Below, piece by piece: positions 15,133-64,000 of a DNA stretch of 64,000 bases; within the stretch, counting starts at the first letter, position 1, and each line of letters begins with the position of its first letter. Location: NCBI GenBank assembly GCA_020631235.1, contig JAHDHQ010000013.1, positions 1-64,000 on the forward strand. Reading direction: 5' to 3'. The position numbers were made by a program, and so were the translations under genes. Under the pieces are notes generated by a model. That model made no database searches, was not told the DNA's origin, and saw only the letters and a program-made list of their open reading frames with translations. Source of the DNA: Saprospiraceae bacterium (GTDB taxonomy: Bacteria; Bacteroidota; Bacteroidia; Chitinophagales; Saprospiraceae).

Positions 15133-18100
15133 ATGACAAAACAGTTCCTATCAATCCTATTTTTTATTGGATTTACCCTACAAATTTCAGCACAATCAAC
15201 AGCTTCTGATTGGACGCTTTCCGACATTGATGGTAATAGTCACCATTTATATGACGTATTAGAAAGTGGCAAAGGCGCCATTATAGATTTTTCTACAACT
15301 TGGTGTGGACCTTGTTGGAGTTATCATAACACGGGTATTCTTGAGGATATGTACGAAGATTATGGGCCTACAGGAAGTGATGAAATCATGGTTTATTTTC
15401 TCGAATCAGATGGTGGGACTAATACAAGTTGTCTGTATGGACCTTCAGGTTGTGTCGGTGGCACTCAAGGAGATTGGGTCACAGGCACAGAGTATCCTAT
15501 CATAGATTTGATGGGTTCGGACCTAAGTATCGTTAATAATTATGGTGTAACTGCTTATCCTACACTTTTCGCCGTTGGACCTAACAAAAAGAAATACAAT
15601 ATCGGACAAGCTTCTTATAATACCTGGGTAGATTGGATGATTGGATCTTTTCAGATGGATGCAACAGCCGTAGTGAATGACATTCCTTGTATAGGTGGAG
15701 TCGGATCAATTGAGTTGACAGCAGTTAATGGTTACGGAGATATTGATTACGATTGGAGCAATGGAGCCTCTGGGCCGATTGCCACGGATTTACCTTTAGG
15801 AGTATATTATTGTACTCTTACAGATGAGCATAATTATGACAAAGTAGTGGGACCTTTTACAGTGAGCCAAGGTGGTACTTCAACACTCTTTGTGATTCCT
15901 GAAATCGAGGAAGGTCCATCGTGTCCTGGTTATGCAAATGGGGCTATAGGTATCAATTCAAATGTTATAGATGATTCTTTTGCATGGAGCAATGGAGACT
16001 CAGGTGGGTTTATATCTAATCTTCAAGAAGGTACATATACTGTTACGGTAACCGATAACTCGAATGGATGTTCGATTACAGAAACTTTCGAAATCCAAGA
16101 CCCTCCAGCTATTCAAGCAACATCATCTACCATTGATGCTGGTTGCCTGGGTAATGAAGGTAGTATTGAGATATCAGGTTCGGGAGGGACAGGTACTTTA
16201 TATTACAGCATTGGAGATGGTTTTTCGGAGGAGTCTACATTTGATGGTTTAGCAAAAGGAATCTATGAAATAGAAATATCTGATGATAATAATTGTTTTG
16301 AAGATTTTAATGTCGAGGTTCAAGGACCTGACATTATGGTATCCATGGCCAACAATGAAGACACACTTACATGTCTGGCCTTACAAGCAGAACTTACCAG
16401 TATTGGTTCTTCTTCCGGTGCATCAGTAAAGTACTTTTGGTCTAATGGTGATGGAGACGAAGTAGGTAAAGAAGATACCATTTATGTGGATAGTCCAGAT
16501 GATTATATATTGTATGTATTAGATACATTGTCTGGTTGTGACGCTTATGACACAGTTAGTGTGATGGCCAATGTTGCTACTCCTGTGTTAACCGGTTCGG
16601 AAAATGTCACCTTAAACTGTCTCATTGAAAGTACAAGTTTATTAGCTACAACTGAAGATACTCTCGGTTTGGAAAGCTATGCTTGGACTACTATGGATGG
16701 CACTATTGAAGATGATGCCAGCGAACTGAGCATTGATGTGGATATGCCTGGGACATATACATTTACAGCGGTAAATCTTACATCAGGATGTGAGTCGCAG
16801 TTCGATATTGCTATTGATCAAAATTTAGATACTCCAGATATTAACATTGATTCACCAGATGAATTGAATTGTGAAAATGAATCAGTAAGTCTCAATGGAA
16901 ATTCTATGACTGGGTCAATGGACGAAACCTACCAGTGGACTACTACAAATGGTTTGATAGAAGGAGATGATGACGTATTAAATATTGATGTGAGTGCAGC
17001 AGGTGAGTATTTCTTAACGGCAGTTAATAATTTGAGTGGTTGTATGAGCTCTACTTCAGTAGTAGTGGCTGCTAATGAAGATCTGCCTGTAATTGCTGCA
17101 GCTGTTTCTAATACTTTAGATTGCAATAATGGTGAAAGTACAATCTCTGTCGATGGAGATGGTAGTTATGACTATACATGGTATGATGTCGACGGTAATG
17201 CTTTAGGAAATGACACCACTTACGATGTGGATAAAGCTGGAGTATATTTAGTAGAAGCAGTGAATGCTTCAAATGGATGTACTACTTCGCAAACCATAGA
17301 AGTTAGTGAAGATTTTGAGGCACCAACAGCAAATATAGATGGCAACCTAGCTATTTGTTCTGGTAATGAAACAACTTTATGTGCAGACGTTAGCGAAGGA
17401 GCAAACTTCCAATGGGAAGTAAATGGTGAAATTTTAACTGACCAATGCATCACTATTGCAGAGGTGGCGGATGTTCGTTTATTTGCTATCAATGATAATG
17501 GTTGTGATGCTAGTGCTGAAAGCAGTATTTCTGTTGACAATAGTTTGGATAATGTTTCTATTTCAGGAGATACAGAGGTTTGTGAAGGAGATGTAGCTAC
17601 TTGGTGTGTAGACGATGCATTTGCTGGACAGATACAATGGATGAACGCAGCAGGTGAAGTTATTTCTATGGAGTCTTGTATCAGTACAGATTTAGCCGGT
17701 GAATACACCGCCAATTTCAGAACCGATCTTGGATGTACAACTTCTCTTTCTGGCAGTGTTACCATAAATTCGATTCCATCTGTAGAAATCACAGAAGCTT
17801 ATGAGGTTAATTGTCTAAACTTAGAATTGGATCTTGATGTCGCACACCTTATGGAAGAAGGCATTAGCTCTATCGATTGGACGAGCACTGATGGAACGAT
17901 TGTTAGCGATGAAGATTTTAAACCTACGGTTTCATCTGCAGGGATTTATACAGCAAGTTTTGTCACAGATGCAGGATGTCTAGGTTCTTTTGATGTCAAT
18001 GTAACAGAGTACTTTAATTATGCAGAAAGTTCATTCGCGTCATCCGCAGATTACGAAACAGTAAGTTTTACAGACATGTCTTCGGGTGATCCTTCAAGCT

Positions 18101-18981
18101 GGTCTTGGGATTTTGGCAATGGTACTAGCTCCAATGATCAAAATCCGACCATCACTTATGATGTGTCTGGAATCTACACGGTTTGTTTAGAAGTAGAGAA
18201 TGAGTGCGGGAAAAACCAAATGTGTGAAGATATTGATGTGTTTGTTCCATTACCACTTACCATTAATGAGCAATACACAGATGTTGTTTGTTATGGGGAA
18301 AATAATGGATCCATTAGCTTAGATATTATGGGTGGCGTAGAAGAATATATTATTGCCTGGACTGGACCTAATGGGTTTACTTCAGACCAAGCCTCTTTGA
18401 CGGATTTAGGTCCTGGAATATATGAGTACAATTTAACAGATCAGATCAATAACGAGTGGTCAAATAGTTTCGAAATATTGGAGCCGGCAGAAATGTTTAT
18501 TCAAGGAGCGAGCATAAATGATGACTATGATAGTGAGGGTGTAGGAAGTATTGATATTGATTTTGTTGGAGGTATTGCACCTTACGAATACGAATGGAGC
18601 AATGGCGCAACTACAGAAGACATCACAGATTTAAATGAAGGCGAATACACCATTGTGATAACGGATGCAAATGGATGCGAGTTTAGTCAGACATTCGAGG
18701 TAATGAATGAGTTGCCGAGTGATTTAGATGAATTAGGTTTGACAGACCTTGCAGTATATCCAAATCCAGTGTCCACTGAATTAACGATTACTGCATCATC
18801 ATTAACTGCGATGGAAAGAACCATAGAAATCGTTGATTTACAAGGCCAACTAGTTTTCAAGCAACAGTTGAAAGAAAACATAAACCTTGTGATTAACACA
18901 GAAATGTGGACGGCAGGGTTGTATATGCTTAAAGTGTCTAATGCTTCGACTTCGTTCTCAGAACGAATCATTAAGCAATAA
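15133..18981 (+). CDS. T9SS-secreted protein with N-terminal thioredoxin domain
   Basis: A 1282-residue secreted protein. The signal peptide ends near ISAQS (21). A TlpA/thioredoxin-like domain (about 24-165) has a redox motif W-C-G-P-C with Cys58 and Cys61. Then come SprB-like repeats (DIDYDWSNGASG and similar), several Cys-containing Ig-like segments, one PKD domain (about 970-1035, WSWDFGNGTSS), two more SprB-like repeats and a type A T9SS sorting tail (about 1207-1282, AVYPNPVSTELTI, ending FSERIIKQ). It should be exported and attached at the surface or released. A redox-active domain on a surface adhesin is unusual; it may be structural, or may shuffle disulfides in other secreted Cys-rich proteins. 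Confidence 0.9.
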   Translation: MTKQFLSILFFIGFTLQISAQSTASDWTLSDIDGNSHHLYDVLESGKGAIIDFSTTWCGPCWSYHNTGILEDMYEDYGPTGSDEIMVYFLESDGGTNTSCLYGPSGCVGGTQGDWVTGTEYPIIDLMGSDLSIVNNYGVTAYPTLFAVGPNKKKYNIGQASYNTWVDWMIGSFQMDATAVVNDIPCIGGVGSIELTAVNGYGDIDYDWSNGASGPIATDLPLGVYYCTLTDEHNYDKVVGPFTVSQGGTSTLFVIPEIEEGPSCPGYANGAIGINSNVIDDSFAWSNGDSGGFISNLQEGTYTVTVTDNSNGCSITETFEIQDPPAIQATSSTIDAGCLGNEGSIEISGSGGTGTLYYSIGDGFSEESTFDGLAKGIYEIEISDDNNCFEDFNVEVQGPDIMVSMANNEDTLTCLALQAELTSIGSSSGASVKYFWSNGDGDEVGKEDTIYVDSPDDYILYVLDTLSGCDAYDTVSVMANVATPVLTGSENVTLNCLIESTSLLATTEDTLGLESYAWTTMDGTIEDDASELSIDVDMPGTYTFTAVNLTSGCESQFDIAIDQNLDTPDINIDSPDELNCENESVSLNGNSMTGSMDETYQWTTTNGLIEGDDDVLNIDVSAAGEYFLTAVNNLSGCMSSTSVVVAANEDLPVIAAAVSNTLDCNNGESTISVDGDGSYDYTWYDVDGNALGNDTTYDVDKAGVYLVEAVNASNGCTTSQTIEVSEDFEAPTANIDGNLAICSGNETTLCADVSEGANFQWEVNGEILTDQCITIAEVADVRLFAINDNGCDASAESSISVDNSLDNVSISGDTEVCEGDVATWCVDDAFAGQIQWMNAAGEVISMESCISTDLAGEYTANFRTDLGCTTSLSGSVTINSIPSVEITEAYEVNCLNLELDLDVAHLMEEGISSIDWTSTDGTIVSDEDFKPTVSSAGIYTASFVTDAGCLGSFDVNVTEYFNYAESSFASSADYETVSFTDMSSGDPSSWSWDFGNGTSSNDQNPTITYDVSGIYTVCLEVENECGKNQMCEDIDVFVPLPLTINEQYTDVVCYGENNGSISLDIMGGVEEYIIAWTGPNGFTSDQASLTDLGPGIYEYNLTDQINNEWSNSFEILEPAEMFIQGASINDDYDSEGVGSIDIDFVGGIAPYEYEWSNGATTEDITDLNEGEYTIVITDANGCEFSQTFEVMNELPSDLDELGLTDLAVYPNPVSTELTITASSLTAMERTIEIVDLQGQLVFKQQLKENINLVINTEMWTAGLYMLKVSNASTSFSERIIKQ

Positions 18982-53012: not shown

Positions 53013-56000
53013 TTACCTAGAAATTACCATTTTGGCAGTAATTCGTTTATTATTTCCTATCATCTCCAAGAAGTATATACCAGCAGGGTATTCAAATGTC
53101 ATTGTATGATCATTTACGCTAGGATATCTTTCAATGGTTTTACCATTCGGATCGAATATTCTCATTACAGCTACTTCATCTGGATTATCAAAGGTGATAC
53201 TATTGTCGTGTATGATGTACTGAATTTCTGGATCGAAGATTTGATCTTCTTCATCTTCTTCGACAAATTCATCACAGTCTTGACCAAAGTACACATGCAT
53301 GGAACAAGTTGGGTCATCCGTGTCTATTAGTAGTATATCATGGGTGTCTGATTCGCTACCTTGAAATGGCCCCAACTCTATGCTTCCATCATAATCATGT
53401 GTGCCTTGATACTCATTATTTAGATACAAGTTATAGGCAGTACCTAATCCTTCATGCTGAGTGCTCACTTCGATAAAATATTGACCTTCTTCACAGGCAA
53501 AGTAATCGATCCCTACACTTTCTATAGAACAGGCTGGCACATCACCACAACACACCGGTTCTTCAAGTTCTAAAACTGCAAAGCAAGAATCTTGTCCATT
53601 ATCCACGAGGACAAATTCGTACAATGTTTCACAATCTGCATCCAATCCTTGAATGTAAATGAGTTCGAGCGGGTAGGCAAAATAACCATAGTCATTGCCA
53701 TTACCATAAACATTAATGCCAGAGCCTGAGCCAAAATTAGCATCTACTTCCATAAGTATATCAAACTGCCCTGCTGCATTACAATCGTAAACAGTATATT
53801 CTACTATATCAATCGAACAATCAACATCTCCATCACAAGGAATATCGAAATAAGCAGTAATGCAACATGACTCATCTTGTCCGTCACAAATTTCAAAAGA
53901 AATAGTCCCTTCTTGGACATTAGGGGTAGCTAAGCTGAGATCTATCGGCTCAGAAAAATCATAAATTCCTAAATAAACATCATCATAGATGATATGATAT
54001 TGGTCACCATTGCTTCCTCCCACTGCTAAGTCAATGATAGTCAAAATCGAATCATTGCAGTAATATTCCGAATACCCATATTCCAACATGCAATCTCCAT
54101 CACAACATATAGGTTCGTCAAAATAGGTTTCATTGCGACAATTCTCAATATCATTATGAATCAAGACGAACTCATATAAAGTTTCGCAATCTGCATCCAA
54201 GGGGCCGATGAGCACATTGTTGCTGCTGTTGAACTCAAAATCACCGTAATCATTTCCATTACCTACAACACTAAAACTGCCTTCTGTACCATCTGAATCA
54301 AAATATATCAATGCGTAAAACATGCCCTCGTAACATTCGACTGCTTCAAGCTCTAACCAGGAAAAAGGACAGCCATCAGATTCGTGACATGGATTATCAA
54401 TTTGGTATTCATTGAAACATTCCATCTCATATTCCTGATCACATAACATTAAGTTTATGGTCGGACCATCCACTAGAAACTGATTGATCCCAAAATTTAC
54501 AGGTAAGTCAGTATAAGCAAAAGTAGCTACTATAGTAACCCCGTTTACAACCACGTTGAATGAGTCACTAGCTCCAACATGTTCCACATTAAAATTTGAA
54601 AAATAGATACTGCTTTCACAACTTATAACGTCAACATCATACTCCCCAAAGAAGCAATCCAGCGGTTCACAACACACAGGTTCACCCAAAGAAAAAGTAT
54701 ATGAGCAACATGGGTCTTCAGCATCTAATAGAGTAAAGTCGTAAATGATATCGCAGTTCCCTGGAATGTCTTCTAAATAAAGATATCCATTGGGACTGTA
54801 TGGAAATGGGCCTCTACTATCGCCATCAAACAAGACATAAAAGCTTTCAGAGCTTGGCTCGACAACATTATAATAAATATTTAAACCGAATAAACCTTCA
54901 TTATCACATTCTTCAACTTCCCATTCTATCCATTCCCATTGACAATCTCCTCCAGTTTGGTTAAAACATGGATTATAAAATTCTATATCATTCTCGCAGA
55001 AATCTTCTATTTGGAAGGATAGTACAAAACCTTCTTCGATTAGATTTTGTGGTATGTTTAAGGTGATAGGCTCATCTTTAGTAAGATCAAAATACGGCTG
55101 GCCGTTTAAGTACAAGGTAATGTTTTCAATGTCGCTTAAATATTCAGTAACAACTAAATCATAGATGATAAAATATTCTTCATTACAATCTGTCCCAGAC
55201 CAAATTGGATTAGGTATGTAACAGTCGTCATCACAACAAATCGCTTCTACAACACCCAAAGAAGAGCACTCGTCACTCGAATTGTCAACAATGAGTACTT
55301 CCATAAATTCGCCGCAATAAGAGGCAAGATAAGGACCTATTTCATAAACACTTTGTCCATAATTTGCTGTAAATAGAACATCATTAACATATACTCTAAA
55401 TGTTTCTTCGCTATTAACAGGATCATCAAATGTTAGCACAATATATGCTAAGCTATCTTCGGCGCAAGCAAAAGGCTGGATGGATACATTATCCAAGTAA
55501 CAATCAGATGATTGATTGCAATTAATTCCCGGCACAACTACTGTATAACAACAATTCAGCGCGTCAGATTCGCAAAAGGTAAAGTATGCCTCTTCATTAT
55601 AGGCTAATTCATAATGGTTTAATGGAAAAGATGCTGCGGGCACTGTTTCAGAATAGGCTCCATTAATGTATACATCTACTAGATCATCAATGCCGTCTTC
55701 TTCAAAAAATTCGCTGTCAAATGTCAAGTTTACGGTAGAATCAAGACACATCGTATCCACAAGACCTACATACACTAGCTCGCATTCAAAACCACAACAT
55801 GCAGGTTCTTCCATGAAAAAATCTACATAACAACTATCAGGACCATTATCTATAACTGAAAAATTATATTGAGTTTGACAATCTGCAATGATCTCATAAA
55901 GAATGTAATTGTCTTGGCCGTAGTCGTACTCTCCGTAAAAGATATCATTAACAAACACACTAAACGAGTTGGATCCCATTTCTGCGGTTACACCTATGTT

Positions 56001-56120
56001 TGCCTCGATAAAATCGCCAGAGCACTCACCCCATTCCACATATTGGATGGAAAGTTCGCATTCATTTTGTGCGGCTAATGAGAAAGATAAAAGAAGGAAA
56101 AGATAGCTTAAGTATTTCAT
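53013..56120 (-). CDS. Giant Cys-rich module protein, T9SS-secreted (paralogue 1)
   Basis: A 1035-residue exported protein, starting at ATG 56120 ahead of the signal peptide (ending SLAAQN). The body is ten modules of about 90-100 residues. Each opens with a Cys, has a second Cys about 12 residues later, and ends in Cys or Cys-Cys (EEPVCC, EPICC). The repeating core is SFxVxxNGxxYGxFxY, then an 'ADCETLYEFVL' style strand. A T9SS-like tail (about 965-1035, VAVMRIFDPNGKTIERYPS and ITAKMVISR) ends it. The neighbour at 56249 has the same module type. I do not know a named family. It probably forms a disulfide-stabilised surface fibre or adhesin. Confidence 0.88.
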   Translation of the reverse strand: MKYLSYLFLLLSFSLAAQNECELSIQYVEWGECSGDFIEANIGVTAEMGSNSFSVFVNDIFYGEYDYGQDNYILYEIIADCQTQYNFSVIDNGPDSCYVDFFMEEPACCGFECELVYVGLVDTMCLDSTVNLTFDSEFFEEDGIDDLVDVYINGAYSETVPAASFPLNHYELAYNEEAYFTFCESDALNCCYTVVVPGINCNQSSDCYLDNVSIQPFACAEDSLAYIVLTFDDPVNSEETFRVYVNDVLFTANYGQSVYEIGPYLASYCGEFMEVLIVDNSSDECSSLGVVEAICCDDDCYIPNPIWSGTDCNEEYFIIYDLVVTEYLSDIENITLYLNGQPYFDLTKDEPITLNIPQNLIEEGFVLSFQIEDFCENDIEFYNPCFNQTGGDCQWEWIEWEVEECDNEGLFGLNIYYNVVEPSSESFYVLFDGDSRGPFPYSPNGYLYLEDIPGNCDIIYDFTLLDAEDPCCSYTFSLGEPVCCEPLDCFFGEYDVDVISCESSIYFSNFNVEHVGASDSFNVVVNGVTIVATFAYTDLPVNFGINQFLVDGPTINLMLCDQEYEMECFNEYQIDNPCHESDGCPFSWLELEAVECYEGMFYALIYFDSDGTEGSFSVVGNGNDYGDFEFNSSNNVLIGPLDADCETLYEFVLIHNDIENCRNETYFDEPICCDGDCMLEYGYSEYYCNDSILTIIDLAVGGSNGDQYHIIYDDVYLGIYDFSEPIDLSLATPNVQEGTISFEICDGQDESCCITAYFDIPCDGDVDCSIDIVEYTVYDCNAAGQFDILMEVDANFGSGSGINVYGNGNDYGYFAYPLELIYIQGLDADCETLYEFVLVDNGQDSCFAVLELEEPVCCGDVPACSIESVGIDYFACEEGQYFIEVSTQHEGLGTAYNLYLNNEYQGTHDYDGSIELGPFQGSESDTHDILLIDTDDPTCSMHVYFGQDCDEFVEEDEEDQIFDPEIQYIIHDNSITFDNPDEVAVMRIFDPNGKTIERYPSVNDHTMTFEYPAGIYFLEMIGNNKRITAKMVISR

Positions 56121-56197
56121 ATTTACGTTTTTTATCAAATGGTAAAATGTTCTATACTCAATAGACATTGGCCAAAATAAACGTTGCGTTAATACTC

Positions 56198-56234
56198 AAA
56201 AAAAAATGGCGACCCCACAGGAATCGCCATTTTT
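56198..56234 (-). terminator. Terminator between the two Cys-rich genes
   Basis: AAAAATGGCGA (56202-56212) and TCGCCATTTTT (56224-56234) form an 11-bp perfect stem. Read on the minus strand it is followed by a run of T residues at 56206-56198, so it ends the 56249-60754 transcript just before the next gene. Confidence 0.88.
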
Positions 56235-56248
56235 AAAAGCTTTCTTTT

Positions 56249-59200
56249 TTAGTGTTTCAATATTTTTTTATGATATAAACGACCTTGAAACTCATAAGAA
56301 ATAATATAAATACTAGCATCTAATGTTTCCATGGAATACTGGCCTGATTCCGGTAGGTCATAATGACCCACAAAACGCCCTGAAGATTGGAATAATTTAA
56401 ATCTAAAGTCGGCAGGAGCATTGGAAACGTAAATGGTATTGTCGAAAAACTCCAAACTAAACAAAGGGGCTTCACAACACACTGGCCCTAAAATATCTTC
56501 CACAGCACAAGCTCCTGATTGATCCTCTAAGTACAATAAATATTCTGTATTACAATCACCCTCAAGGTCACTAATCGTGTAATAATCCTCGCCATAAGTA
56601 AAAGTGCCCACCATGTCATCATTTAAATAAACCAAAAAAGAATCTGAACTTGGATCGATCATATCAAACCAGAAATCTATATTAAATAATCCATCATCAG
56701 AACACTCACTAATCTCAATAACCAAGTCAGAAAATGTACATGCTTCTGATGATTCACATGCTGGCGACTCTACTTCTATTTCTGCACAGCAATCCTCTGT
56801 ATCATTAATGCATATGGTCAAAACGACATCACTGCCTATAGCCATTCCGTCTATAAACAAAGGTAATTCTTCAAGTAAATAATAGTCATAATATTCGTCA
56901 TCTATCCATACTTCGAAGAAGTCGTTGCCTGCATTATCTACTTCAAAATCTACATAAAAACTGTATGAAGCCTCATCATCACAATTGATGTCAAAAACAA
57001 TTAATTCACTGATCTCACAAATTTCTTCTTCACAACATACGGGACCAAATGAACTTTCAATATTGCATTCGTTATTGATTTCATCTTCAAGATATAGAGT
57101 ATATTCTGTAACGCAATCTCCATCAAAAGGACCTACTGTGTAGTAGTCCTCACCATACACTAAATTTGCTAAGAAGACACCATTTACATAGGCATTAAAT
57201 GATCCAGCATCTGGAAATTCGACATTGAATTCAAAATCAATAAAGAAATTCTCATCTGAATCGCAGCCATATGTTTCAATGTATAATTCTGTAAATAAAC
57301 ACTCACCATCGTCTTCTTCACAGTTAGGCGGCTCTACTTCTAAAATAGCGCAACAATCTTCATTGTCATTAATACAAACCTCTATAAGCGTATATCCATC
57401 AATAATTACTTCATCGACAAAAAGCGGGAGTTCTTCTAAACTATAAAAACCCACAAAATCTCCATCGACCCACAAATCAAAGAAGTCATTGTCCGCACCT
57501 TCTACACTAAAATTGATGTAAAGGGAATAACTTTCTTCGGATATACATTCCAGGTCAAAAGCTTCTAAATCATAAATTTCACAAGTACCTTCATCATCGC
57601 AGCAAACTGGCCCGAAACTCCCTTCGATGGTACAACCATCATTGAGCTCGTCGTACAACTGAATGCTATATTGAGTTTCACAATCTCCATCAAAGGGACC
57701 AATGGTGTAAAATCCTTCTCCATATGGGTAGTTGCCATAAAAATCACCATTGATATGTACATTAAAGGAACCAGCATCAGGATCTAGAATTTCGAAGGCA
57801 AAATCAATGAGGAAATTACCTTCTTCATCACATTCGTAAGTTTCGACAACCAAGCCGTCGAACATGCACTCACCCTCGTCTTCTTCACAGTTAGGCGGCT
57901 CTACTTCTAAGATAGCGCAACAATCTTCATTGTCATTAATACAGACTTCTATAAGCGTATAACCATCAATAATTACTTCATCGACAAAAAGCGGGAGTTC
58001 TTCTAAACTATAAAAACCCACAAAATCTCCATCGACCCACAAATCAAAGAAGTCATTGTCCGCACCTTCTACACTAAAATTGATGTAAAGGGAATAACTT
58101 TCTTCGGATATACATTCCAGGTCAAAAGCTTCTAAATCATAAATTTCACAAGTACCTTCATCATCGCAGCAAACTGGCCCGAAACTCCCTTCGATGGTAC
58201 AACCATCATTGAGCTCGTCGTACAACTGAATGCTATATTGAGTTTCACAATCTCCATCAAAGGGACCAATGGTGTAAAATCCTTCTCCATATGGGTAGTT
58301 GCCATAAAAATCACCATTGATATGTACATTAAAGGAACCAGCATCAGGATCTAGAATTTCGAAGGCAAAATCAATGAGGAAATTACCTTCTTCATCACAT
58401 TCGTAAGTTTCGACAACCAAGCCGTCGAACATGCACTCACCCTCGTCTTCTTCACAGTTAGGCGGCTCTACTTCTAAGATAGCGCAACAATCTTCATTGT
58501 CATTAATACAGACTTCTATAAGCGTATAACCATCAATAATTACTTCATCGACAAAAAGCGGGAGTTCTTCTAAACTATAAAAACCCACAAAATCTCCATC
58601 GACCCACAAATCAAAGAAGTCATTGTCCGCACCTTCTACACTAAAATTGATGTAAAGGGAATAACTTTCTTCGGATATACATTCCAGGTCAAAAGCTTCT
58701 AAATCATAAATTTCACAAGTACCTTCATCATCGCAGCAAACTGGCCCGAAACTCCCTTCGATGGTACAACCATCATTGAGCTCGTCGTACAACTGAATGC
58801 TATATTGAGTTTCACAATCTCCATCAAAGGGACCAATGGTGTAAAATCCTTCTCCATATGGGTAGTTGCCATAAAAATCACCATTGATATGTACATTAAA
58901 GGAACCAGCATCAGGATCTAGAATTTCGAAGGCAAAATCAATGAGGAAATTACCTTCTTCATCACATTCGTAAGTTTCGACAACCAAGCCGTCGAACATG
59001 CACTCACCCTCGTCTTCTTCACAGTTAGGCGGCTCTACTTCTAAGATAGCGCAACAATCTTCATTGTCATTAATACAGACTTCTATAAGCGTATAACCAT
59101 CAATAATTACTTCATCGACAAAAAGCGGGAGTTCTTCTAAACTATAAAAACCCACAAAATCTCCATCGACCCACAAATCAAAGAAGTCATTGTCCGCACC

Positions 59201-60754
59201 TTCTACACTAAAATTGATGTAAAGGGAATAACTTTCTTCGGATATACATTCCAGGTCAAAAGCTTCTAAATCATAAATTTCACAAGCGCTTTCTTCATCG
59301 CAGCAAACAGCATCGATGACTTCATTTAGGACGCAAAGTTCAGAACTCCAGTCCTGGATAAAGATGTTATAGTCCGTTTCGCAATCTCCATTAAAAGGGC
59401 CTATCGTATAAAAGTCTTCACCATAGTCAAATGCATCTAAAAAATCATCATTGATGTAAACGGCAAAAGAATCGCTGAGTGGGTTTTCGTAATCAAACTC
59501 AAAGTCCACTAAAAATTGATTATTCTCATCACATGCATACGTTTCATAAAAGAAATCAAAAAGATTACAAGCTAAATCTTCATCACAGCAAGGAATGATA
59601 AATCCTTGTTCGATAAAACAAGTGGAATCTAGCACATCTATTAAAGTAATAGTGGAAACTTCGCTACAATCACTAGCCAAGGGGCCGATGGTATAGCTCT
59701 CTTCTCCGTACGGCAGATTTTCAATGTAATTTCCTTCTACATAGACTTCAAAAGAGTCTGCGATAGGATTTTCTATCGTAATTTCAAAATCCACATAAAA
59801 TTGATCATCTTCATTACAGGCTCCTGATTCTGCAACCAACTCAGTAAATGAGCATTCAGCTTCATCCGGGCACATAGGCGGTTCGATAGTTGCACTGGCA
59901 CAGCAATCTTCTACATCATTGATACACACATCGATGACGCTGGTAAGACCTGTAGATAGAGGCCCTATTTCTACTGGCAACTCTATCAACAGGAAATAAT
60001 CAAAATATATATCATCTATCCAGACTTCGAAGTAGTCATTTCCTGGATTTTCCACATGGAAGTTGATGAATGTGGTATAGGTCCCATCTTCACCGCATAT
60101 TTGATCAAAGTACTCAAGATCAGTAATCGTACATTCAAGTTCACAGCAAACCGCTTCTTCTAAACTCAATTCAAGACTACATTCAGGATCTTCATTATCT
60201 TCTAAAACAAAAACATATATGGTTTCGCAGTCACCAATTAAATCTTCCACCACAACGAATGGTTCTTCATAAGAAAAATCATCGCCATAGACATCTCCAT
60301 TTACATACACTGTAAATGTGGCGGCCTCATTATTCTCAACTTCAAAGGTCAGGTATACATCAAAGGTGCCGTCTTCATTACACAAGGTAGGATCAGGAAA
60401 TCCTTCTATCCAATTGCAAGTACAGCAAGGGGCATCTACAAACTCCTCAATAGCACAATCCGAATCATCAACATCCTCCAAGAAAATGAATACATCTAAC
60501 TCACCACAATAACCATCAAATGGGCCAATTGTATAAAAATCTTCGCCATAATTAAAGGTAGTAATATACGTTTCATCCTCTTCAAGCAAATATACATTGA
60601 AACTCCCATCGGCTGAACTTTCAAATTGAAAATCGATGGTGTACTGATCATCTTCATTACAGGCGCTTGCTTCAGTGACTATGTTTTCAAACATACAATC
60701 TTGGGCGCTCAGATACCAAGGGAAAAATAGAAGTAATAGTAAATGTCTTTTCAT
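56249..60754 (-). CDS. Giant Cys-rich module protein with tandem repeat, T9SS-secreted (paralogue 2)
   Basis: A 1501-residue exported protein from ATG 60754 (signal peptide ends YLSAQD). It has about fifteen modules in alternating subtypes. Subtype B ends in CC (GPVCC) with NGDFYGNYPYGEGFYTIGPF; subtype A has an internal CC and ends in a single Cys (DCCAILEVEPPNC). A and B pairs from about residue 490 to 1148 are almost identical copies. The very acidic composition (many D and E) suggests calcium binding or life in seawater. A T9SS tail ends the protein (about 1425-1501, LYHKKILKH). Function is not known; a surface fibre is the best guess. Confidence 0.9.
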   Translation of the reverse strand: MKRHLLLLLFFPWYLSAQDCMFENIVTEASACNEDDQYTIDFQFESSADGSFNVYLLEEDETYITTFNYGEDFYTIGPFDGYCGELDVFIFLEDVDDSDCAIEEFVDAPCCTCNWIEGFPDPTLCNEDGTFDVYLTFEVENNEAATFTVYVNGDVYGDDFSYEEPFVVVEDLIGDCETIYVFVLEDNEDPECSLELSLEEAVCCELECTITDLEYFDQICGEDGTYTTFINFHVENPGNDYFEVWIDDIYFDYFLLIELPVEIGPLSTGLTSVIDVCINDVEDCCASATIEPPMCPDEAECSFTELVAESGACNEDDQFYVDFEITIENPIADSFEVYVEGNYIENLPYGEESYTIGPLASDCSEVSTITLIDVLDSTCFIEQGFIIPCCDEDLACNLFDFFYETYACDENNQFLVDFEFDYENPLSDSFAVYINDDFLDAFDYGEDFYTIGPFNGDCETDYNIFIQDWSSELCVLNEVIDAVCCDEESACEIYDLEAFDLECISEESYSLYINFSVEGADNDFFDLWVDGDFVGFYSLEELPLFVDEVIIDGYTLIEVCINDNEDCCAILEVEPPNCEEDEGECMFDGLVVETYECDEEGNFLIDFAFEILDPDAGSFNVHINGDFYGNYPYGEGFYTIGPFDGDCETQYSIQLYDELNDGCTIEGSFGPVCCDDEGTCEIYDLEAFDLECISEESYSLYINFSVEGADNDFFDLWVDGDFVGFYSLEELPLFVDEVIIDGYTLIEVCINDNEDCCAILEVEPPNCEEDEGECMFDGLVVETYECDEEGNFLIDFAFEILDPDAGSFNVHINGDFYGNYPYGEGFYTIGPFDGDCETQYSIQLYDELNDGCTIEGSFGPVCCDDEGTCEIYDLEAFDLECISEESYSLYINFSVEGADNDFFDLWVDGDFVGFYSLEELPLFVDEVIIDGYTLIEVCINDNEDCCAILEVEPPNCEEDEGECMFDGLVVETYECDEEGNFLIDFAFEILDPDAGSFNVHINGDFYGNYPYGEGFYTIGPFDGDCETQYSIQLYDELNDGCTIEGSFGPVCCDDEGTCEIYDLEAFDLECISEESYSLYINFSVEGADNDFFDLWVDGDFVGFYSLEELPLFVDEVIIDGYTLIEVCINDNEDCCAILEVEPPNCEEDDGECLFTELYIETYGCDSDENFFIDFEFNVEFPDAGSFNAYVNGVFLANLVYGEDYYTVGPFDGDCVTEYTLYLEDEINNECNIESSFGPVCCEEEICEISELIVFDINCDDEASYSFYVDFEVDNAGNDFFEVWIDDEYYDYYLLEELPLFIDGMAIGSDVVLTICINDTEDCCAEIEVESPACESSEACTFSDLVIEISECSDDGLFNIDFWFDMIDPSSDSFLVYLNDDMVGTFTYGEDYYTISDLEGDCNTEYLLYLEDQSGACAVEDILGPVCCEAPLFSLEFFDNTIYVSNAPADFRFKLFQSSGRFVGHYDLPESGQYSMETLDASIYIISYEFQGRLYHKKILKH
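57310..59285. repeat. 567-bp tandem repeat, about 3.5 copies
   Basis: Unit length is exactly 567 bp (189 codons, one A plus one B module). The copies beginning near 57878, 58445 and 59012 look identical by eye, including third codon positions. The copy nearest 57310 differs by a few bases (for example AAAATA against AAGATA). Identity stops sharply near 57309 and 59285. This indicates recent amplification or gene conversion, and the true number of copies may be miscounted in an assembly. Confidence 0.93.
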
Positions 60755-60772
60755 GTGGCTTGTTTTTAACAT

Positions 60773-61220
60773 AGATATGAAATGTTAACATTTCGCTGCT
60801 TTGGCCTTTCATTTTACAAAATACTTAAAACACTTTTAAAGCCCTATTTTCAGGAAGGTGATTGTTCATTAGCTATTTTTTGTAAGTATATATTGCACGT
60901 ATTCAGTTATATATATATTACGGTTATATGCAATGTGTTTTGATGGTCCAATGTCGATTCTCCATCGTTTTTACCATAAAATGATCATATCTGGATTTCA
61001 CTTCCAAAAATGCTAAGTTTTTTTTTCTTTTTTTTCAATGTTGGATTTTGTGCTTAAAATATGAGAGACAAATACATACACTTTAGCTAAAAATATAATC
61101 TGTTTTCATATTAAAAAAGCTCATCATTTGATATTCAGTTTGGAATAAATCTTGGTCTTTAGAACTCGATATTACTTTTTAAAGGCTTATCGTCGGCTTA
61201 CACAATTGGCGATAGGTCTC
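60773..61220. other. Long intergenic region between divergent giant genes
   Basis: About 450 bases between divergent surface-protein genes, strongly AT-rich, with a T-rich run near 61020-61036 and an alternating TA tract near 60909-60920. Apart from the palindrome at 60779-60794 I see no gene, RNA or consensus promoter here. Confidence 0.5.
60779..60794. promoter_or_regulatory. Perfect 16-bp palindrome upstream of the giant repeat gene
   Basis: GAAATGTTAACATTTC lies 25 bases ahead of ATG 60754 (minus strand). A near-match to a -7 element (TATCTATG on the minus strand) lies between them. It could be a repressor or activator site for the gene. No second copy was noticed in the window. Confidence 0.4.
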
Positions 61221-64000
61221 ATGAGTAGAAACGAATTTTTCAAAAACCGAAAATCGATGAGAAGACCATTACTTACACTATGTAAACGGTTATCCAAAAC
61301 TCAGCTAAACAGATTTACTCAGATCTGTTTAATCCTATTATTCACTTCTAGTGTCTCCATCCTTTCAGCGCAATTTACGTTTGATTATGAACGTATCTGT
61401 AACGTTGAATGTGATGACGGATGTAGATTCCTAGTTGAAGTCTGCTTTGATGACAATGATCCTATTGAAAATGGGGATTATACTGTTTCAGAGTATGGTG
61501 GCATTATACCAGTTGTATTTGCAGCTGATCAATGTTCACCTCCCTTAACATTTCCGACTCCATTTACGGTGTCAGATTCAGATGGTGATGATATTTATTG
61601 CTTTGAAGCATATATGGCATCATCTGGAGAAGCTGCTTATGTAGAGTTTGAAAGAGGGGATGATAGCACTCCAAGTCCTGTTGATTATCAAGATTGTCCA
61701 GTCTTGGCCATTAATGGACCATCTACTGTTTGCTTTAATAGCGATGGGGTAAGTATGGTTAAAGACTATACCGTTCCAGGTGCTATTGCGGACTTAAATG
61801 ATGCTGGCTGGGCTATAGACCCACCGGTTGCTGGTGCTTTACCAGTTGATGTAGACAACAATACGGTAAGTATTGATTGGTCTGCTTATGCGGGTGCTTA
61901 TTTACCAGAACCCGTATTTACCTTAAGCTTCACAGGAGAAGACGAATGGGGATGTGAGATCGAAGAGGAGATCGAAGTCACCCTGTACGACTTAAGCGAT
62001 AGAGCTTTAGTAAGTGGTGCTAATACGGTGGTTTGTGGTGCAGATGAGCATTACGATTTATTAAATGTTTTAGATCCAAATGATGCCTTATCATTAACAT
62101 GGACCGTGACTGGAGCAGGAAATGTTCTGACCATGCCCCCAGGTTCTTTAGGAGAAGCAAACATTGTATTTGATGCAGGAGTAGGAACCTATACTATAGA
62201 AGTAATGGGTGTTTCTGCGGGAGGATGCGAATTTTCTGTGGATTATGAAGTCGAAGTCATTAATGATCCTATGGATCTTGATTTGATATTTTTCGAGCCG
62301 GCTGAGCCTGTTTGTTATGGCCAGAAGATTAAATTTTGGTTTGATGATGCAGACCTACCAAGTCCTGCCGATGTCAGTTCACTTAATTGGACTTTTGATC
62401 CTCCACATGATGGTGTGATTATCGAAGTGGTTGAGCCATTTGATGATACCGTTTGTGTGACGGTTAATTTTGATCCGACCTTTGTCGGCGTACCTAATAC
62501 TATCAATATAGATGTTGATGGTTTATATGCTGCAGGTGGTGTATGTGGATTTTCTGATTTTGTAACTGTCGATTTATATAATTATAGTATCAATGGAAGC
62601 ATTGAAGGTGAGGATATGCCTCAATGTGGTGCTTCTGAGTTATATACTTTATCAGGCATAGACATGGCTGATCTAGCAGCTGCACCGGTATGGACTGTGA
62701 TGAACGGTTCTGCAGGAGCAACTACTTCATCTGATTTAACTTTTATGGTTGATTGGGATGCAGGTATAGGGGCTGGAACAGTTGCTGTTACAGCAGAGAC
62801 CATGGATGGTTGTGATATTTACGTAGAATTTACGACCACTGTCCTAGATTTAGGAGAAGTTGATATCGAAGGTGACACCTATGTGTGTGCTGGAGATGTT
62901 GTTTGTTATTCTTTACCTATTGGTGATGTCATACCGAGTGGTACTAATTTGATTTGGACTTTAGATGCTGATGGTATTACCAATGATGTAAATACAACAA
63001 CAGCGGGAGTAACGAATGTAGGTGCCGATTTAACGATTACCGAAACAGCGGGAAGTGAAATTGAAGCATGTATAACATTTGGTGCTGCAATGGCAGATGA
63101 AGTAATGACACTTACTGTTTCACCAGCAGCAGCAGACCCTTGTTTTGCAGCTACAGCTTTATTGCCTATACAATTAGTAAACAGTCCTACACCAATACAA
63201 TTAGCTTGTAACAATTCTGTGAATATTTCTGTAAATGGCTTATGTGAATTAGCTATTACAGCGGATATGATCTTAGAAGGAGATTACGGAGGTAACTACG
63301 ATCAGTTTGATCTAATTATCAAAGATGCGGCTACTGGTGTGATGATTCCTGATGGAGTTTTGGATGCATCATACATTGGTACAACACTTGAAGTAATGGT
63401 CCAACAAGATTGTTCACCTAACTCATGTTGGGGATACATTGTTGTAGAAGATAAATCAGTACCTACACCACCGTGTGGTGATGATATTAACACGAATGCT
63501 ACTCCGAGTGCGGGAGATTTTACTATTGATGTAGGAGCAGGAGATGGTGATGCAAGAGTGGGAGACTTTATAAATGATTTTACTATTGATCTTACAAGTT
63601 CGAATAATGGAGTATCGGATGATGCATCGGCTTGTTTTACAGTAACCATTGACGGAACAGTTAACTTCGAATGGACTTATTTAAGCTATAACAGTGAAGC
63701 AGCATGTGACCCTTTTGGGTATAGTATTGACCCAGATGGAGCAGGTCCTATGCCAGCAGTTTATACGCAATTAACAACTGGAGTGGCCTGTGATTTAGTT
63801 CCAGACAACGACTTAGAACAATCAGGTGCTGAAGCTGTGGATGTCACTTTGGGTGCTGAATTTTGTTTCATTGCTTCAACTCAAGATGCAGCCCTGGGTC
63901 AAGCGGTAACTGCTGTAACTAATGTTTCTGTAAATGATTGGGTAGCATGTTCGTATGTAGAAACAGGTGACCCTAGTTCACTTAATTTTGATCCAGGAGT
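61221..64000 (+). CDS. Giant secreted adhesin, 3' end beyond the window
   Basis: An open frame of 926 codons from ATG 61221 with no stop before the window edge. A signal segment (about 40-54, LILLFTSSVSILSAQ) follows a positively charged N-terminal extension of about 35 residues; ATG 61257 is an alternative start. The body is a chain of Ig/PKD-like domains with paired Cys and short WTV or WTF strands. At about 660-760 is a segment of the Saprospiria adhesin type (ITADMILEGDYGGNYDQFDL, then SCWGYIVVEDKSVPTPPC). A T9SS tail probably lies downstream. It probably acts as a very long surface adhesin. Confidence 0.85.
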   Translation, partial: MSRNEFFKNRKSMRRPLLTLCKRLSKTQLNRFTQICLILLFTSSVSILSAQFTFDYERICNVECDDGCRFLVEVCFDDNDPIENGDYTVSEYGGIIPVVFAADQCSPPLTFPTPFTVSDSDGDDIYCFEAYMASSGEAAYVEFERGDDSTPSPVDYQDCPVLAINGPSTVCFNSDGVSMVKDYTVPGAIADLNDAGWAIDPPVAGALPVDVDNNTVSIDWSAYAGAYLPEPVFTLSFTGEDEWGCEIEEEIEVTLYDLSDRALVSGANTVVCGADEHYDLLNVLDPNDALSLTWTVTGAGNVLTMPPGSLGEANIVFDAGVGTYTIEVMGVSAGGCEFSVDYEVEVINDPMDLDLIFFEPAEPVCYGQKIKFWFDDADLPSPADVSSLNWTFDPPHDGVIIEVVEPFDDTVCVTVNFDPTFVGVPNTINIDVDGLYAAGGVCGFSDFVTVDLYNYSINGSIEGEDMPQCGASELYTLSGIDMADLAAAPVWTVMNGSAGATTSSDLTFMVDWDAGIGAGTVAVTAETMDGCDIYVEFTTTVLDLGEVDIEGDTYVCAGDVVCYSLPIGDVIPSGTNLIWTLDADGITNDVNTTTAGVTNVGADLTITETAGSEIEACITFGAAMADEVMTLTVSPAAADPCFAATALLPIQLVNSPTPIQLACNNSVNISVNGLCELAITADMILEGDYGGNYDQFDLIIKDAATGVMIPDGVLDASYIGTTLEVMVQQDCSPNSCWGYIVVEDKSVPTPPCGDDINTNATPSAGDFTIDVGAGDGDARVGDFINDFTIDLTSSNNGVSDDASACFTVTIDGTVNFEWTYLSYNSEAACDPFGYSIDPDGAGPMPAVYTQLTTGVACDLVPDNDLEQSGAEAVDVTLGAEFCFIASTQDAALGQAVTAVTNVSVNDWVACSYVETGDPSSLNFDPG

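Follow-up and report, generated by a model that had tools for sequence, protein, structure and literature searches.

Two adjacent giant proteins of a Saprospiraceae bacterium are arrays of one cysteine-rich module with a predicted fibronectin type III-type fold

Two giant genes, here called P2 and P1, follow one another on the minus strand of contig JAHDHQ010000013.1 of a draft Saprospiraceae genome (assembly GCA_020631235.1), within positions 1 to 64,000 of the contig; this whole stretch of 64,000 nucleotides (nt) was analysed and is referred to as the window. Both open reading frames (ORFs) are free of interruption, and 80 nt separate them as listed. An earlier note on this DNA had described their products as exported proteins made of one repeated cysteine-rich module, and indeed the two proteins carry signal peptides and are built of homologous modules. 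P2 likely starts at the inner ATG at 60754, the coordinate given by the earlier note (the ORF is listed as 56249 to 60772), in which case its signal peptide reads MKRHLLLLLFFPWYLSAQ; the start of P1 is likely the ATG at 56120 (ORF listed as 53013 to 56168). The modules were delimited by cutting both proteins at the first cysteine of each unit, and the letters A and B below denote subtypes that differ in an extra pair of cysteines, while O denotes modules in which neither extra pair is complete.

56249..60754, minus strand: P2, signal peptide, 15 modules and a weak tail resembling those of the type 9 secretion system (T9SS)
60422..60700, minus strand: P2 module 1, type A, six cysteines
60137..60421, minus strand: P2 module 2, type A
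59858..60136, minus strand: P2 module 3, type B
59573..59857, minus strand: P2 module 4, type A
59288..59572, minus strand: P2 module 5, type A
59006..59287, minus strand: P2 module 6, type B
58439..59005, minus strand: P2 modules 7 (A) and 8 (B), first 567-nt unit, the pair used for structure prediction
57872..58438, minus strand: P2 modules 9 (A) and 10 (B), second 567-nt unit, no codon differences from A7B8
57305..57871, minus strand: P2 modules 11 (A) and 12 (B), third 567-nt unit, which departs from A7B8 and A9B10 in five codons (four silent, one coding)
57023..57304, minus strand: P2 module 13, type A
56744..57022, minus strand: P2 module 14, type B
56462..56743, minus strand: P2 module 15, type A
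56252..56461, minus strand: P2 tail, weakly similar to a T9SS sorting domain (local profile, 13.2 bits, E 0.014)
53013..56168, minus strand: P1, signal peptide, 10 modules and a T9SS type A sorting domain
53268..56063, minus strand: P1 modules 1 to 10, types A, B, A, O, A, O, A, B, A, O
53022..53198, minus strand: P1 T9SS type A sorting domain (TIGR04183), NCBIfam match

The about fifteen and about ten modules counted in the earlier note are exactly 15 in P2, each with exactly six cysteines (90 in total, 15 x 6), and 10 in P1, with four to seven each (56 in total). They measure about 95 residues and are all homologous: a profile built from 20 of the 25, from which five identical or near-identical copies were left out, recovers every module of both proteins, the best with an E value of 3.7e-32 against the profile that includes it. 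The array and the homology of its units are real and far beyond chance.

The cysteines follow a strict pattern. Profile columns 1, 13, 79 and 90 hold a cysteine in all 20 aligned module rows of P1 and P2, and across the wider family these core columns are 90-99% cysteine. Type A modules add cysteines at columns 63 and 91, type B modules at columns 72 and 80. For the wider family 663 modules were collected from 77 ORFs, 657 of them near-full; removal of the 59 identical to others gave 598 distinct modules, and ORFs with runs of X were left out, so that one sister species is represented without its P2 (100 N at positions 4138-4237 of L026/L060). In a first set of 299 near-full modules the extra cysteines covary with phi values of 0.89 (63/91) and 0.96 (72/80). 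Among the 598 distinct modules cysteine 63 occurs in 51, and all 51 have the closing CC, versus 7 of the 547 without it; cysteine 72 occurs in 253, of which 246 carry cysteine 80, versus 1 of the remaining 345; none of the 598 has both cysteine 63 and cysteine 72. When the set was thinned to 320 representatives (45% identity), columns 72 and 80 were joint in 109 of 114 versus 1 of 206, and columns 63 and 91 in 12 of 22 versus 0 of 298, the latter counted on the aligned column 91 only, which is often cut by the alignment edge. The extra pairs are gained and lost as units and the two types are mutually exclusive, so the subtypes proposed earlier are real, and the cysteine pattern is consistent with disulfides that form within modules. 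Direct-coupling analysis of the 598 modules was swamped by alignment edges and was not used (72-80 was among its top 45 pairs, 63-91 was not).

The claim that the subtypes alternate holds for P2 from module 5 onwards (type order AABAABABABABABA) and not strictly for P1 (ABAOAOABAO). The same P2 order is found in one sister species, whose P2 is about 54% identical to that of the window. Part of this regularity is due to recent copying of A-B units, as the 567-nt units A7B8, A9B10 and A11B12 are 0 to 5 codons apart; their copy number in this draft genome may be affected by misassembly. These units were revealed by a separate repeat search, since Tandem Repeats Finder, with a longest period of 500, gave no rows. 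The 72 distinct proteins contain 509 pairs of adjacent modules, of which 27 are A-B and 25 B-A, versus 14.6 expected for each from shuffling inside each protein (sd 2.2 for A-B), and 8 are A-A versus 22.4; type A modules are confined to 10 of the 72 proteins, and because these are related the shuffle overstates the significance of the order. The linkers from the last cysteine of a module to the first of the next are short, 1-6 residues in P2 and 3-7 in P1, and at the A-to-B junctions of P2 3-5 residues separate the closing CC from the following cysteine.

The fold of the module was approached by structure prediction. AlphaFold2 returned a single type A module with a pLDDT of 96.2 and a pTM of 0.85, with strands at residues 3-11, 19-29, 35-40, 43-49, 55-61, 68-74 and 77-86, and an A-B pair with a pLDDT of 95.2 and a pTM of 0.64. 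With the pair as query, Foldseek gave a best E value of 2.8e-5 to modules of CbhA that resemble fibronectin type III (FN3) domains, and 14 matches at E 0.001. A second structural aligner placed the single module on human fibronectin with Z 9.6 and 2.5 A over 87 of 95 residues; the 50 matches listed are mostly what we take to be FN3 domains and FN3-derived binders, at Z 8.3-9.6 and with rmsd values mostly of 2.1-3.0 A over 78-93 residues. The same aligner matched the A-B pair to a predicted fibronectin model with Z 10.0 and a large rmsd, which suggests different hinge angles between the modelled modules. The module is therefore predicted to be a seven-strand A-B-C-C'-E-F-G sandwich of the FN3 type; a fold absent from the lists of structural matches may still come into question beside it. 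In predicted strand order, in length (~95 residues) and in forming tandem arrays with short linkers the modules resemble FN3 domains such as human fibronectin FN4-7 (6mfa) and the FN3 domain of GH84C (2w1n), whereas their identity is only 6-17% among the matches listed, none of 111 modules matches the fn3 profile, and they carry four core cysteines plus two exchangeable pairs and, in P2, neither lysine nor arginine. The sandwich domains of beta-glucuronidases are also structurally alike (8ges, Z 8.6, 2.8 A over 93 residues with the single module).

Sequence searches gave a different picture from the structural ones in that no named family claimed the module. The Pfam fn3 model has no match in 111 modules at E 0.05, in 20 modules at E 1, or in whole P1 and P2 at E 1; NCBIfam, scanned with P1 and P2, has none above cut-off in the module region; and profile searches of PDB sequences found no relative (best E 8.2; none; 0.21 to a nucleoporin), the E 8.2 and nucleoporin matches being taken as chance, as were weak Pfam matches of single modules (Imm75, YmcE and others). 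The profile search thus gave no clear named domain. The nearest case is PF13364 (beta-galactosidase ABD2), which scores above its Pfam cut-off on whole P2 (45.4 versus 23 bits); this score is a sum of sub-threshold pieces, no stretch passes alone, the best covers 29 of 112 positions, and among single modules 2 of 20 match at E 1 (best E 0.062) and 1 of 111 at E 0.05 (E 0.0097). It is not counted here as a clear match to a named domain, although it is one point against the absence of the module from Pfam. The suggestion of a new protein family stands for the sequence of the module and not for its fold: as judged from these searches and models, it is a new sequence family of a known, FN3-type fold, present in none of the libraries searched. 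In titles and the opening parts of abstracts, PMC12635249 among them and subscription papers mostly outside the coverage, no description was found of the module, of surface repeats free of lysine and arginine, or of the ~490-residue partner protein treated below.

In FN3 topology the N terminus and the F-G loop lie at one pole of the domain, and the A-B loop, the E-F loop and the C terminus at the other. On this topology and the covariation, the most plausible disulfide map has core bonds C1-C79 and C13-C90, to which type A would add C63-C91 and type B C72-C80. C1-C79 and C72-C80 would then staple the N-terminal pole and C13-C90 and C63-C91 the C-terminal pole, so that four staples would meet at an A-to-B junction, where the extra A and B staples would face one another, and two at a B-to-A junction. 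Eight modules lack C13 in place; in rows read by eye, five of them have, close to the E-F loop, a cysteine within a [FILV]PC motif, as expected if both sites can reach C90, and in two the cysteine is shifted. C1 and C79 are lost together in one module.

A further property is the near absence of basic residues. The module region of P2 (1409 residues) contains neither Lys nor Arg and has 4 His beside 178 Asp and 195 Glu, and that of P1 has 4 Lys or Arg in 932 residues; the charges are about -373 and -182, with a pI of 4.05. The longest stretch free of Lys and Arg in the 2617 ORFs examined (duplicates included) is that of P2, with 1447 residues. Runs of at least 300 residues without Lys and Arg occur in 57 ORFs, 37 of them module ORFs, although module ORFs are only 77 of the 2617; with identical ORFs removed the numbers are 35 of 55 versus 72 of 2508. 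As a control, the 30 best of at least 150 T9SS proteins of the same genome have a median of 3.9% Lys+Arg (body part, up to 465 residues). The median is 0.95% in module ORFs with a T9SS-like tail (n=48, up to 11.4%), 3.4% in lipoprotein-like ones (n=10) and 0.55% in the 14 others, P2 included, classes that rest on the local T9SS profile and a simple pattern, with many ORFs cut by contig ends. The exclusion of Lys and Arg was rejected as a property of the fold by relatives with up to 12% of these residues; it is selected or inherited in many members and not required by the fold. Elsewhere in the window, at 15133-18981, a 1282-residue protein with a T9SS tail has 0.9% Lys+Arg and 3.3% Cys in the part examined.

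The earlier note had assigned both proteins to the T9SS. This was borne out for P1, whose C-terminal domain exceeds the NCBIfam cut-off of TIGR04183 (24.9 versus 23 bits) and falls below that of the Pfam model (19.6 versus 27 bits); for P2 the tail is weak only, found with a local profile made from 30 T9SS tails of the same genome and with no sorting-domain match in Pfam or NCBIfam. By a local profile 48 of the 72 distinct module ORFs have a T9SS-like tail, P1 included and P2 not. Signal peptide, giant repetitive body and, in P1, the sorting domain liken the proteins to T9SS type A cargo, from which P2 departs by its divergent tail; P2 too would be exported by this system. The genome, of 4.2 Mb, encodes at least 150 T9SS sorting domains above cut-off (150 of 302 candidates scored).

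Taken together, we consider it fairly probable that P1 and P2 are T9SS-exported, pole-stapled, polyanionic rods of FN3-type modules. The arrays would be stiffened at both poles by disulfides; the proteins would pass the Sec machinery and then the T9SS, and the rods would project from the outer membrane or form part of the matrix, hydrating and bridging cations through their negative charge. The calcium binding suggested by the earlier note may occur but would not follow from the charge by itself, and among the Pfam matches of P1 and P2 there are no calcium-motif profiles. Trypsin cuts after Lys and Arg, and because the P2 modules have neither, they would escape trypsin-like proteases. Such a use, as a surface or matrix rod, is probably of a known kind.

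Several observations weigh against parts of this account. The disulfide pairing derives from covariation and FN3 topology; 36 modules without C1 keep C79, some because of alignment edges and others truly, which makes C1-C79 the least secure pair, and one module without C13 shows no substitute cysteine. The pTM of the A-B pair gives no support for a rigid junction, the orientation between modules being predicted without confidence, and with one module as query Foldseek reached a best E value of 5e-3, none at E 0.001, in a mixture of immunoglobulin (Ig) and FN3 chains. The T9SS tail of P2 is under every curated cut-off. Some relatives are rich in Lys and Arg (L041, 11.4%; L032, 7.5%; the short L065, 12.0%; L063 and L080, 8.7%), and an unrelated-looking T9SS-tail protein of the same genome (L105, contig C26, ~321612; 38% Asp+Glu, 4.8% Cys) has neither residue in 458 body residues.

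This last protein, with other acidic T9SS proteins of the genome that are poor in Lys and Arg, is what recommends the view that the lack of these residues is mere salt-adapted acidic surface composition without a special role. We take that view seriously while leaning against it: P2 lies far under the 3.9% median, the AT-rich DNA (GC ~37%) would favour lysine codons, and the long runs without Lys and Arg belong mostly to module ORFs. A different reading of the cysteines, that they bind metal or serve as a redox or metal store, could appeal to a cysteine content of 6% beside acidic residues, to the CC pairs and to a sub-threshold match of the metal-binding CueP in P2 (15.5 bits versus a cut-off of 60); it is improbable given that the extra cysteines come and go in pairs at sites that are close on FN3 topology, and that exported proteins are normally oxidised.

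The remaining alternatives concern what the rods do. Long gliding adhesins have a precedent in SprB, for which Pfam holds a model. Many members of the phylum glide, and repeat proteins of this size and T9SS type could be cargo that moves on a gliding track; P1 and P2, however, have no SprB-type Pfam match at E values up to 1 (no search was aimed at gliding genes) and the P1 tail fits the type A sorting domain, so that we hold this to be unlikely, if slightly less so than metal binding. Aureispira, of the same family, has the grappling hook protein GhpA, a fragment of which (9flw) Foldseek ranks 25th with the module pair as query (E 1.5e-3); this would fit filaments that catch or grapple prey. 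The TM-scores of this fragment, 0.29 and 0.13, are no better than those of the surrounding FN3 and Ig chains, no GhpA chain was found up to E 10 in the profile search of PDB sequences, and thus no sequence relation was found; among the alternatives this is the one to which we give the least weight, and a very small one.

The two genes may be transcribed separately, as suggested by an intrinsic-terminator-like hairpin between them, which makes separate transcripts likelier than a single one:

56202..56234, minus strand: hairpin with a 15-pair stem and a T run

Against this stands that the region has a single site of this kind where shuffled sequences have a mean of 4.2, a count that is not significant.

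The module family, the spread of which the earlier note had not addressed, any more than the covarying cysteine pairs or the lack of Lys and Arg in P2, is concentrated in Saprospiraceae as far as the genomes searched indicate. Of 60 genomes, a search with P2 finds matches in 24 at E 0.001, and one with the 111-row module profile in 30 at 1e-6, the genome of the window counted in both; P2 alone reaches other genera with E values down to 4.4e-104. In a phylum-wide draw 7 of 395 genomes match at 0.001, four in the family of the window (its own genome included) and three with one weak match each (6e-6 to 4e-4). In named genomes a scan confirmed 41 loci, mostly Saprospiraceae by title, with a few titled Chitinophagales, Flavobacteriaceae, Aureisphaera galaxeae (a named strain), Flavisolibacter or Draconibacterium, all groups that we take to belong to Bacteroidota; these loci are mostly metagenome bins, possibly mislabelled, and since two type-B peptide patterns served as seeds, the scan favours relatives that carry type B. 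Four relatives (L085, L087, L091 and L093, three titled Flavobacteriaceae and one Aureisphaera) are lipoprotein-like, with 2-3 modules beside cysteine-rich repeats that look like Kazal inhibitors by eye and have no Pfam Kazal match in these four. In L050, L052, L054 and L056 modules, several without the first cysteine, alternate with ~98-residue stretches, which in L050 match PKD and plastocyanin-type models.

Upstream of P2 a third giant gene is read in the opposite direction and is followed by a related large gene:

61152..64000, continuing to L024:17572, plus strand: start of a 2139-residue T9SS protein with an HYR match and a weak dockerin-like stretch

The order P2, P1, divergent giant and SUI1-like factor gene is kept in two sister species. 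Outside the genus, five loci have a homologue of the giant (single-linkage BLAST) near their module genes: in L027, L032, L048 and L089 it lies upstream and is divergent, in L033 it lies downstream. All giant-bearing loci except L033 have type A modules, and the only other locus with them is L030, in the genome of L048.

A gene for a protein of ~490 residues that has no signal peptide by eye is common to 25 of the 70 module loci compared; many of the rest are truncated or have different neighbours. At 23 of the 25 this gene is the neighbour on the upstream side and on the opposite strand:

L029, L031, L033, L037-L042, L044, L049, L070-L072, L075, L076, L078, L079, L081, L086, L092, L095, L098: loci with the ~490-residue partner gene
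L151-L190: other copies of the partner gene

The partner has no clear library family, only weak TPR-like matches. Paralogues are present in 53 of 60 genomes, with at least 26 matches each in five. In a survey of 40 stretches, of which 39 surround listed copies from elsewhere, the copies being selected by hand, a divergent T9SS-tail gene lies upstream of 35 of the 41 selected copies with a readable neighbour, versus 4 of 325 other ORFs of the same stretches. By coordinates, both copies in the genome of the window lie divergently beside T9SS-tail genes, while P1 and P2 have no such partner and the giant T9SS gene stands in its position. A scan of ten partner-linked cargo proteins shows them to be diverse, with cohesin, DUF7619, FG-GAP, dockerin-like and other matches. 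A tree of 67 partners from a quick search puts 23 of the 25 module-adjacent partners within a single branch of 24 members; the remaining member, L160, has a transporter-like neighbour by eye and no module gene.

Such a pattern would be expected of a regulator or chaperone with a dedicated cargo; if the gene pair had simply been inherited vertically, this would account for the tree, and not for the many pairs per genome. We tentatively propose, at somewhat less than even confidence, that the module-bearing giants belong, as one lineage, to a genome-wide system of Saprospiraceae and relatives. In it, a cytosolic TPR-like protein of ~490 residues would be encoded divergently from one particular T9SS surface protein, which it would control or chaperone as a dedicated partner, with many such pairs per genome; in the clade of the window the divergent T9SS giant would stand where the partner otherwise lies, and the modules would have gained the type A staples.

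The module adds a protein family missing from the libraries to bacteria whose surface proteins are little known. Its most surprising parts are a disulfide grammar, a four-cysteine core with two exchangeable pairs, one per pole, in a conserved order, and a stretch of 1447 residues without Lys or Arg. As a test case the family lets one ask how bacteria make tandem rods of the FN3 type stiff, how T9SS cargo folds oxidatively, and how some 1400 residues can be assembled into a protein that has neither Lys nor Arg. Should the partner family be functional, it would manage T9SS cargo one protein at a time, in a way of which the literature searched gave no description.

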